A model generated the notes under the pieces. It saw nothing but the letters and a program-made list of their open reading frames with translations, was not told where the DNA came from and did not search any database. A DNA stretch of 64,000 nucleotides, from contig NZ_QPKJ02000001.1 in the NCBI RefSeq assembly GCF_003344625.1, forward strand, positions 1,178,001 through 1,242,000, in the 5' to 3' direction. A program made the position numbers and the translations under genes. Shown here piece by piece: positions 48,720 through 51,787 of the stretch. This DNA comes from Solirubrobacter deserti (GTDB lineage Bacteria > Actinomycetota > Thermoleophilia > Solirubrobacterales > Solirubrobacteraceae). Within the stretch, counting starts at the first letter, position 1. The number at the start of each line of letters is the position of its first letter.

Positions 48720-48816
48720 CAAGGTCAGTTTGTCCGATTGGCCACGTGCGCCGCAAGTCTGGACGCCGCTTGGCGTTTGAGCTTTGCGTCCAACGGCCAC
48801 CCCACGGAATGCCGAT

Positions 48817-50445
48817 ATGTCTCCATTGCTGACAGCCCGCCCATCAGTCTCAGTCACGATGCGGTTGCTTGGTGCGTGTGCCGTCACCGCCGTCGTGGCC
48901 GCGTTCGTTCCGCTGGCCGGCGGAGACGGCGAGTCCAGTGCCGCCGTCCCCGCATGTCTGACCGTCGCGATCATCTGCGCGGCGCTGATGAGCCACATGC
49001 TCTACGCGTCCTCCAAGGCGCTCGACGATCGCCGCATGGCGTGGCTCGCGATCGGCACGACCGTCGCGATGCTGGGGCTGATCACCTCCCTGGTCGCGCT
49101 GCCGAGCGTCTTCCCGGGCGGCGGGCCGGTCGACTCCGGCGCCAACTCGGCCGCCGCGCGCTACGTGATCTGGCACGTCGCGCTGATCCTCGCCGGCGTC
49201 TTCGCCCTCGTGGGTGTGCAGGCGACCCTTCGCAACCTTCTCATCTTCGGCGGCTCAGGTGCCCTCCTCCTCGCCTGGGCCGCCGTCGCCTCCTCCCCGC
49301 TCGGGAACCTCGCCGACGGCGACGGGCTGACCGCGACGATGCGCGTCCTGGTCGCCGTCATCGTCCTCGCGCAGGCCGGCGTCGCCTTCGCCTGGTGGCG
49401 GCGCGCCGGCGGCGCCCTGAACTGGGGCGAGTTGTGCGTGCTCGTGATGATGGGCCTCGCCGCCCTGGACGCCTTCGCGTACGTGTGGGCGACCGGCGTG
49501 TTCGAGGGCTCCTGGTGGGCGTCCCTGGCGCTGCGCGCCGGCCAGTTCGCGATCCCGGCCGTCGGCCTGCTGATCGGCTTCATCGCCGTGGCCGAGAAGC
49601 TGCGCGAGTTCGAGCGCGAGCTGGCGCAGAACCTGGTGGCCGAGCGCGAGCGCGCCCGTGCCCACGAAGAGCGCGTGACCCTGGACGCCGAGCGCCGCGA
49701 GCGCATCCAGGCCCGCATCCGGCGCATGACCAACGGCTTCGGCCTGGACGTCGCGTTCCAGCCGATCGTCGACCTCGCGTCCGGCAAGGTCGTCGGCGCC
49801 GAGGCGCTCGCGCGCTTCAAGGACGCCGACGGCACCGCCATCCCGACCGAGCGCTGCTTCCTGGACGCGCACGCCGTCGACATGGGCGTCGAGCTCGAGC
49901 TCGCCGTGATCAAGCTCGCGCTCGAGTGCCACGAGCGCCGCCTCCCCGAGGGCCGCTACCTCGCGCTCAACGTCTCCCCCGCCGTGCTCGAGCAGGACGA
50001 GCTCGCCTTCGCCATCGCGCGCCACAGGACCGACCGTCCGCTCGTCGTCGAGATCACCGAGCACCAGCCCGTCGAGGACTACGTCGCCCTCTCGGCACAG
50101 CTGGACCGCCTGCGTGCGCTCGGCGTGCGCGTCGCCGTCGACGACGTCGGCTCCGGCTTCGCCTCCTTCCGCCACGTCACCCGCGTCAATCCGGACATCC
50201 TCAAGCTCGACCGCACCCTCGTCTGCGGCATCGACGACGACCCGGTCCGCCAGTCCCTGGCGAGCGCCATCGTCGCCTTCGCCAAGGACGTCGGCGCGAC
50301 CGTCGTCTCCGAGGGCATCGAGAACGAGTCCGAGCTCTGCTGCCTGAGGGGCCTCGCCGTCGGCTGCGGCCAGGGCTTCTACCTCGCCCGCCCGAACCTC
50401 GGCACCGTGGACGCCGAGGTCCCGCAGCTCACGGCGGTCGCCTGA
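48817..50445 (+). CDS. Membrane-anchored EAL-domain c-di-GMP phosphodiesterase
   Basis: This 542-residue protein has an N-terminal membrane region of about seven hydrophobic segments (about 15-265), a basic coiled linker (LREFERELAQNLVAERERAR) and a C-terminal EAL domain (about 300-535). The EAL residues needed for catalysis are present: GAEALARF, LNVSP, VEITEH, VDDVGSGFASF, LKLDRTLV, SEGIENE and GQGFY. It should therefore hydrolyse c-di-GMP rather than only bind it. There is no GGDEF domain. ATG at 48817 is preferred over an earlier in-frame GTG at 48784. The gene is divergent from the Rieske operon. Confidence 0.9.
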   Translation: MSPLLTARPSVSVTMRLLGACAVTAVVAAFVPLAGGDGESSAAVPACLTVAIICAALMSHMLYASSKALDDRRMAWLAIGTTVAMLGLITSLVALPSVFPGGGPVDSGANSAAARYVIWHVALILAGVFALVGVQATLRNLLIFGGSGALLLAWAAVASSPLGNLADGDGLTATMRVLVAVIVLAQAGVAFAWWRRAGGALNWGELCVLVMMGLAALDAFAYVWATGVFEGSWWASLALRAGQFAIPAVGLLIGFIAVAEKLREFERELAQNLVAERERARAHEERVTLDAERRERIQARIRRMTNGFGLDVAFQPIVDLASGKVVGAEALARFKDADGTAIPTERCFLDAHAVDMGVELELAVIKLALECHERRLPEGRYLALNVSPAVLEQDELAFAIARHRTDRPLVVEITEHQPVEDYVALSAQLDRLRALGVRVAVDDVGSGFASFRHVTRVNPDILKLDRTLVCGIDDDPVRQSLASAIVAFAKDVGATVVSEGIENESELCCLRGLAVGCGQGFYLARPNLGTVDAEVPQLTAVA

Positions 50446-50499: not shown

Positions 50500-50549
50500 C
50501 CAAGCGTTCTTGCCGCGCGGTTCTCCGCAACGGCGAGCACACCCACTGG

Positions 50550-50833
50550 AGCCGGGTTCCCCGGACTGCGTGAAACGCCGAGCGTTCACGCACGGGCCAT
50601 TCGCTCGGGCTCGGGCCGCCGGAGTGGGTCGCAAGCGCTTGTGGAGGGCCGCCTGGCACGCGAGCGTTCACTAAGGCCCCCAGGAGGCGACTGAGTGAAC
50701 CCTCGCGTGGCGTGACCGGAATCGTTGGTCAGTTCAGGCCCCATAGGGGCCCGAACTGACCACTCACCGCCGGGGGCTAGCAAGTAGCTCTGCGCACACG
50801 CGCGAGCGTTTGCGCAGTCCGGGGAACCCGGCT
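50550..50833. repeat. Gene-free 284-bp block of nested inverted repeats with 21-bp perfect ends
   Basis: This is the main part of a 487-bp stretch without genes (50446-50932). The ends are perfect 21-bp inverted repeats (50550-50570 and 50813-50833; core GGGTTCCCCGGACTGCG). Inside are four hairpins: A 50567-50592 (TGCGTGAA/TTCACGCA plus CGC/GCG), B 50655-50711 (18-bp arms, 16 paired), C 50727-50761 (GGTCAGTTC/GAACTGACC plus GGCCCC/GGGGCC) and D 50790-50817 (CTGCGCA/TGCGCAG plus ACGC/GCGT). A and D are related in sequence but differ in ways that keep pairing. There is no ORF of interest, no transposase and no clear target duplication. A MITE-like element or structured RNA are both possible. 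Confidence 0.7.
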
Positions 50834-50887
50834 TGTTGGGACGTTGCACGCCCGCCGTTGCCAATCCCGCGGCCGGCGCAAAGAAGA

Positions 50888-50916
50888 GGCCCGCCGCGTG
50901 CATGACGAGACGGGCC
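50888..50916 (-). terminator. Intrinsic terminator of the lipoprotein gene
   Basis: On the minus strand GGCCCG pairs with CGGGCC (50911-50916 and 50888-50893), followed by TCTTCTTT. It lies 16 nt after the stop at 50933. Confidence 0.62.
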
Positions 50917-50932
50917 CGAGGACCGAGCGCGG

Positions 50933-51787
50933 CTAGGAGATCGTCGTCTCCTCCGGCACGCTGCGGCCGAAGTCCTGCTGGAGCTTTTGCATGAGCTCCT
51001 CGATCGGGCGGCCCGAGGCGGGCGGCGTGATCTGCACCGGCTTGTCGACGTCCTTGAGCTGAATCGAGAAGGAGATCGTGGACTTGTCGGAGCCATTGTC
51101 GACGGTCATGCGCGCCGCGACGCGGCGGAGCTTGTCGTCGGACTGGGCGACGTCGACGGTGAAGGTCGGGTCGCTGATCATCTTCTCGACCTGGTCGATG
51201 TCGCCGTTGGAGAGCTGCTCGAGGCCCTCGAAGCCGCTGGCGCCCGGCTGCTTGGCCATCTCCTTCATGTCCTCGAGGGCGGCGGAGAGGTCGAGCTTGC
51301 CGGTGATGCGGGTGACGCGCTCGCCGTTGAGCTCGGCGTCGGACTGGGCGTCGCTCTCGGGGAACCAGTCCTGCATCCTGGCCATGAGCTTGGTCACGTC
51401 CGCGGATTCCATGCCGCTGCCGGCGCCGAGCGCGCCGAGCTGGGCGATCTTGTCCTTGCCGACCTGGTAGGTCTCGCCGCCGTACTGGACGAAGGCGTCA
51501 TCGCCGGTGGAGATGATCCGGCCCTCGACGGGCCGGGGCATCATGCCGTCGAGGCTGAGCCGCCAGTCGACGCTCGGGAGCTTGTTCTCGCCGTTGGACT
51601 GGAACGGGCCGCTGAGCGACACGTTCGACTCGCCCTGGGCGGACTTCATGGACAGCGCGACGGTGACGTCGGCCGACTCGATGTCTTGCTCGAATGCGGT
51701 CTTGACGACCGACGCCTCCTCGGCGCCACAGGCGCTGAGGGCGAGGGTCGAGGCGGCGGTCACTGCGAGGAGGGCCCGTCTCATCAT
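50933..51787 (-). CDS. LppX/LprG-like exported lipoprotein
   Basis: The 284-residue protein has a lipoprotein signal peptide (LLAVTAASTLALSAC, Cys20). The mature part resembles the actinobacterial LppX/LprG/LolA-like beta-barrel-half fold that carries lipids, with a repeated pattern of short strands and GERVTRITGKLDLSAAL and DGMMPRPVEGRIISTGDD elements. It would sit on the outer face of the membrane. No transporter gene is adjacent, so the cargo is unknown. ATG at 51787 or 51784 is the start. A clear terminator follows. Confidence 0.78.
   Translation of the reverse strand: MMRRALLAVTAASTLALSACGAEEASVVKTAFEQDIESADVTVALSMKSAQGESNVSLSGPFQSNGENKLPSVDWRLSLDGMMPRPVEGRIISTGDDAFVQYGGETYQVGKDKIAQLGALGAGSGMESADVTKLMARMQDWFPESDAQSDAELNGERVTRITGKLDLSAALEDMKEMAKQPGASGFEGLEQLSNGDIDQVEKMISDPTFTVDVAQSDDKLRRVAARMTVDNGSDKSTISFSIQLKDVDKPVQITPPASGRPIEELMQKLQQDFGRSVPEETTIS

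Follow-up and report, generated by a model that had tools for sequence, protein, structure and literature searches.

The window considered here, the whole 64,000-nucleotide stretch of Solirubrobacter deserti DNA that was analysed, contains an element of about 331 bp (50529..50859, no strand assigned) that is best read as a nested cluster of palindromes resembling repetitive extragenic palindromic (REP) sequences, placed between two convergent genes. A protein match at 100% gives the same species name for the host. The decisive clue to its nature, the presence of matching palindromes at the starts of nuclease genes, is located outside the window. The upstream gene (48784..50445, forward strand), which we take from its sequence to encode an EAL-type protein, has similar DNA at loci L126 and L128. 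The convergent downstream gene (50933..51787, reverse strand, with its stop at 50933) is lipoprotein-like by eye; its relatives show 54-100% identity in five of the six genomes of the genus (coded G000-G005; loci are coded L followed by a number) and only 27% in G002. An inverted repeat at 50888-50931 adjoins this gene and is possibly its terminator. The same gene pair in G003 lacks the element: there only 63 bp, holding a plain terminator, separate the two stop codons, and in G004 another small gene occupies the interval.

The nested element

The element begins with an exact match to the outer end motif of its family, AACGGCGAGCACACC (50529..50543, forward strand), and ends with a partial inverse of that motif, GCCCGCCGTT (50850..50859). 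Positions 50550 and 50833, which the original prediction took for the limits of the element, are therefore inner borders; the perfect 21-bp inverted repeats that it placed there are present, as read directly from the sequence (left arm 50550..50570, forward strand; right arm 50813..50833, reverse strand), and the repeat list also holds longer inverted arms (50550-50592/50791-50833). Four internal hairpins, none assigned to a strand, were likewise upheld: an end hairpin at 50567..50592, seen by single-hairpin DNA folding; the 53-nt hairpin M2 (50657..50709; repeat list and family model), which comes from a dispersed palindrome family of fixed length; hairpin M4 (50726..50762; repeat list and pattern search); and a second end hairpin at 50790..50817, which both the repeat list and the folds support as an inverted relative of the first. 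Folded singly as DNA they give z values of -3.9, -5.1, -7.8 and -3.3, in positional order, the last being equalled by 2 of 200 shuffles, and a fifth candidate (50632-50645) does not fold under the same single DNA folding. For the 306-nt stretch 50540-50845 the fold z is -8.1 and -9.1 on the two strands, and none of 100 dinucleotide shuffles folds as well, so that the pairing goes beyond that of shuffled sequence.

A family of mosaic elements

Pieces related to the element were found by BLAST in 6 of 61 genomes (the host and relatives), several each in G000, G003 and G004 and a single weak match each in G001, G008 and G044; the plasmid and phage collections gave no match. A whole element restricted to the genus is thus nearly, but not strictly, what the DNA matches describe. 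At up to one mismatch, AACGGCGAGCACACC exceeds its reversed pattern, used as the control, in G000 (15 against 6), G003 (33 against 6) and G004 (52 against 2), and is near control level in G001 (9 against 6), G002 (6 against 3) and G005 (10 against 3). Paired outer motifs, excluding mis-pairings such as one of 800 bp in the window, delimit elements of 135-491 bp, which are mosaics: the outer arms are constant, the set of hairpins inside is variable, interior modules come and go, and otherwise similar copies carry different hairpins swapped in one slot. With frames called heuristically, 22 of 68 element ends lie within -2 to +20 nt of the stop of a reading frame, and for 6 of 68 that interval holds the opposite end of a frame. 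Common flanking DNA, on one or both sides, unites loci of different species into at least 15 groups; in two of the three groups aligned, the hairpins keep their position but differ in their stems, and the third shares little beyond the end. Among 16 paired elements (four mis-paired entries, the window, L080, L084 and L121, were omitted), 15 have no direct repeat at their borders and one, L068, has 2 nt and is probably mis-paired; at its corrected borders the window has a 2-nt direct repeat, which is within chance.

The interior hairpins also occur alone. In the M2 family the length and the ends are kept while the inner stems change on both sides, and the paired changes, which the original prediction had named as a test along with second copies, are strong (covariation 0.393 against 0.154 in shuffles, reached in 0 of 500), in an alignment of 28 hairpins whose members were picked by pairing (at least 11 of 16), which biases covariation toward structure. 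The number of pairs changed on both sides in this alignment, 14 against 12.2 expected, is not unusual (78 of 500 shuffles). The M2 model matches, on both strands together, 34, 40, 1, 57, 91 and 27 places in G000 to G005, and fewer in most other genera; at E 0.01 it has hits in 20 of 61 genomes, a number of them weak, so that M2 is not a family confined to the genus. Copies of M2 also stand in tandem at 61 bp in G003. A single M4 pattern, derived from G000 and G003 copies and missing some variants, finds 4 places in G000 and 28 in G003, the four remaining genomes of the genus have no hit, and its reversed form finds none; the hits include the window hairpin and the start of the G003 gene L278 (C124:43713). 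On C24, C36, C83, C91, C94, C129 and C131 of G003, M4 palindromes are arranged in tandem with a 51-bp period. In a set of 53 hairpins, G.T and A.C make up 84 of the 218 stem cells with a mismatch, about the third expected if mismatches were equal, and oriented hairpins have 27 G.U and 20 A.C; both are weak tests, the orientation of the hairpins being partly or wholly arbitrary.

Palindromes at the starts of AbiEi-DUF559 genes

In loci retrieved with M2 from several genera, that hairpin stands where a gene begins whose product matches PF13338 (AbiEi_4) and PF04480 (DUF559), PF18741 being below its cut-off. We surveyed 90 loci in 12 genomes (89 of 92 DUF559 matches and one AbiEi_4 match), 84 of which have an AbiEi-like N-terminus. 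Of 83 genes, 19 have a strong hairpin within the 100 nt that precede the domain; for other bins the figure is 8 of 1170 (p 7e-18), and dinucleotide shuffles expect 0.05. Counting all hairpins over the DUF559 loci revealed little (22 in 221 kb, compared with 9 in the 130 kb of control loci); only position relative to the gene reveals the association. Model R1 had hits in 4 of 30 DUF559 loci and 2 of 40 control loci; at one locus of G059 (L212) the DUF559 gene is flanked on both sides by R1-matched hairpins, the second of them weak. In the host, the hairpin in front of the AbiEi-DUF559 gene L191, an M2 hairpin, is intact.

The gene-start palindromes vary from gene to gene, and their versions are matched by the dispersed copies. 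At 1e-6, 16 of 84 gene starts match element loci and shifted windows do so in 0-4 of 84. Of 12 genus genes with hits, nine match in their own genome, and in all nine the best match lies in that genome (two nearly tied). The G000 gene L268 and its G003 relative L278 bear different versions of the palindrome, and the copies in each genome follow the gene of that genome. By eye, the gene-start palindromes of L218 and L221 contain GATGAACAAACAGGTC or GTACAAACAGGTC and are similar to a hairpin module of S. taibaiensis elements.

Two hairpins of the window itself can be linked to such genes. M2 matches the start of the G003 AbiEi-DUF559 gene L260 (BLAST, 75% over 64 nt, E 3e-9 for a 480-base target), a comparison in which none of 861 control windows reaches 1e-6. 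M4 matches the host AbiEi-DUF559 gene L314, which begins with an imperfect palindrome, at 82% over 38 nt (E 7.5e-5, also for a 480-base target). This match is modest. The link of M4 to a gene leans more on the M4 pattern shared with L278 and on two elements of the host whose identity to gene L268 over 48 nt is 94% (L075) and 90% (L079). At E 0.01, gene starts match the window in 8 of 84 cases, little above the control (47 of 861), so the match between L278 and the window (E 0.003) carries no weight alone.

Dispersal is also seen with palindromes taken from genes in other genomes. In other Actinomycetota, a hairpin lies near the gene start in 10 of 29 loci chosen by AbiEi_4 alone, at least one of which (L288) is wrongly anchored. 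The palindrome of L304, whose dispersal was predicted beforehand, has 29 strong places in G091, two of them flanking the gene, which leaves 27 extra copies; that of L301, a putative AbiEi-type gene, has four full places in G130 and that of L250 three in G005, the gene's own included in both counts. Palindromes from three AbiEi-type genes were thus dispersed in all three genomes tried. At the seven further G091 loci inspected, stop codons precede several of the copies, and some copies lie between convergent genes (by eye).

The proteins are predicted to bind and cut DNA. In the structural model of L260 (predicted local distance difference test score, pLDDT, 91.5), residues 14-194 match the AbiEi antitoxin and residues 196-293 match both Vsr and the homing endonuclease I-Bth0305I, and E201, D230, W233, E241, D243, H248 and D257 are invariant in 40 aligned proteins. 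The fold and the conserved residues of an EDxHD/Vsr catalytic domain are both found, in one model and 40 proteins, and AbiEi-DUF559 is predicted to be an AbiEi-type DNA-binding protein fused to a Vsr/homing-endonuclease-like domain.

Discussion

The palindromes are associated with AbiEi-DUF559 genes, stand at a set position near the gene start much more often than expected by chance, are dispersed, and occur in gene-matched versions. We favour, at a little better than an even chance, the view that they are REP-like palindromes with a nuclease partner unrelated to the known REP transposase, and that the nuclease may be what moves them. The AbiEi-type N-terminal part would recognise the inverted repeat of the palindrome and bind to it, the C-terminal nuclease, which is Vsr/EDxHD-like, would cut or nick at or near palindromes, and repair would then bring in the copy of a palindrome located elsewhere. 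Over several rounds a slot would come to hold a different hairpin, further hairpins would enter older ones to produce the nesting, and complementarity between the two arms would be preserved, and the 3' ends of genes would best tolerate the copies. Both the exchange of hairpins in a slot and the nesting follow naturally from copying of this kind.

Several observations weigh against this view. The link between gene and palindrome is a genomic one, from which cutting, binding and movement are inferred, and many positions are common to different species, so that recent movement within the genus is not supported. In the survey, whose 12 genomes were selected partly for having M2 hits, a palindrome at score 11 is missing from 64 of 83 genes, upstream control windows also match element loci (3-4 of 84), and the remaining 3 of the 12 genus genes match copies in another genome only, with a target set that covers G000 and G001 thinly (8 and 7 of 80 loci). 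The level of the match between M4 and L314 is reached by 2 of 861 control windows, and the L314 palindrome scores below threshold; the host gene L191, at an M2 locus, matches relatives only in pieces. Links to genes cover M2 and M4, and none was identified for the outer ends, the 21-bp repeats or the end hairpins. Finally, L304 has no PF04480 match and PF18741 only below cut-off.

The most serious competitor, in our view rather unlikely, holds that the palindromes are operators of AbiEi-type autoregulators, that dispersed copies arise through ordinary template switching and conversion, to be retained or tolerated in the role of terminator or protein-binding site, and that the nuclease has no part in their spread. 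There is a precedent: the AbiEi protein of Streptococcus agalactiae is reported to bind to inverted repeats and to repress the operon that encodes it (PMC7319586). The position of the palindromes at gene starts fits this well, as does the nearness of element ends to stops of heuristic frames. However, where examined, the dispersed copies lie at the 3' ends of genes and not at promoters, the strong extra copies in G091 and the best matches within the own genome suggest active copying, and the nuclease residues are invariant.

The original prediction had suggested a mobile element like a miniature inverted-repeat transposable element (MITE). A MITE proper would be a non-autonomous transposon moved by a DDE or HUH transposase acting at the outer ends. 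Of the suggestion, the idea of a repeated element able to insert is borne out by the dispersed copies and the empty site in G003, and the terminal inverted repeats and the length range also suit a MITE; Y1 transposases are encoded at 10 PF01797 loci in five of the six genus genomes. We nonetheless consider a MITE improbable, since target duplication is missing from all but the one probably mis-paired element, interior hairpins occur alone too, a longer element with the same ends was not noticed by eye among the outer-motif hits (mostly in draft assemblies), and the palindromes beside the Y1 genes appear by eye to be of another type. Several of these genes, which are RAYT-like (L135-L144), adjoin palindromes of type CCTAAAGAGGGACAGTCCCTCTTTAGG (CTAAAG...CTTTAG; by eye). 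A RAYT, or REP-associated tyrosine transposase, was accordingly rejected as the mover: the genes are present, but with palindromes of a different type beside them. Least probable of all is the multi-branched structured RNA of a 3' untranslated region that had also been proposed, to which the very stable folds and the strong paired changes would lend themselves, but which is disfavoured by the lack of any Rfam match at gathering score in the window, by both strands lying about equally far below their shuffles and by the lack of a clear wobble excess (in weak tests) and an architecture that is not kept.

RAYT (TnpA-REP) genes are chromosomal and bear or adjoin the same palindrome as the dispersed REPs. 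The system described here resembles REP/REPIN-RAYT systems in having short dispersed extragenic palindromes at the 3' ends of genes and a chromosomal gene that bears, or is flanked by, the same palindrome (for the RAYT side, see PMC3733652). It differs in its partner, which belongs to the AbiEi type and has a Vsr/EDxHD-like nuclease instead of being a Y1 HUH enzyme, in that a GTAG tag stands at the hairpin foot in only 1 of 53 distinct 53-nt hairpins, and in that several partner genes with different palindromes are found per genome. The same paper describes CGTC-tagged REPs at the 3' ends of genes, a location shared with the palindromes studied here, which "apparently lack a dedicated transposase" (PMC3733652); here 13 of 53 hairpins have CGTC or its complement no more than 8 nt from the foot, which does not support its conservation. 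Relative to I-Bth0305I (EDxHD) and Vsr, the nuclease is fused to an AbiEi-like DNA-binding part and its targets would be dispersed palindromes, and relative to AbiE type IV toxin-antitoxin systems the AbiEi-type protein carries a nuclease domain.

Short palindromic repeats are common in bacteria and, to our knowledge, only those of the RAYT type have a known enzyme partner. In the open-access literature searched, as far as titles and the opening lines of abstracts go, DUF559 or AbiEi-fused nucleases are not tied to dispersed palindromes. It is possible, though we would not call it probable, that pairs of an AbiEi-nuclease and its own palindrome form a separate class of selfish or domesticated repeat system across the Actinomycetota, homing by cut and repair, with several pairs per genome competing for slots at gene ends and leaving nested mosaics. 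If the favoured view is true, orphan repeat families would find their explanation in another enzyme family, unrelated to the RAYTs and equipped with palindromes of its own, DUF559 proteins would gain a role, and paired stems could diverge at the level of DNA and mimic RNA covariation. The pairing of palindrome and nuclease hints at an undescribed route by which repeat DNA may spread in bacteria.
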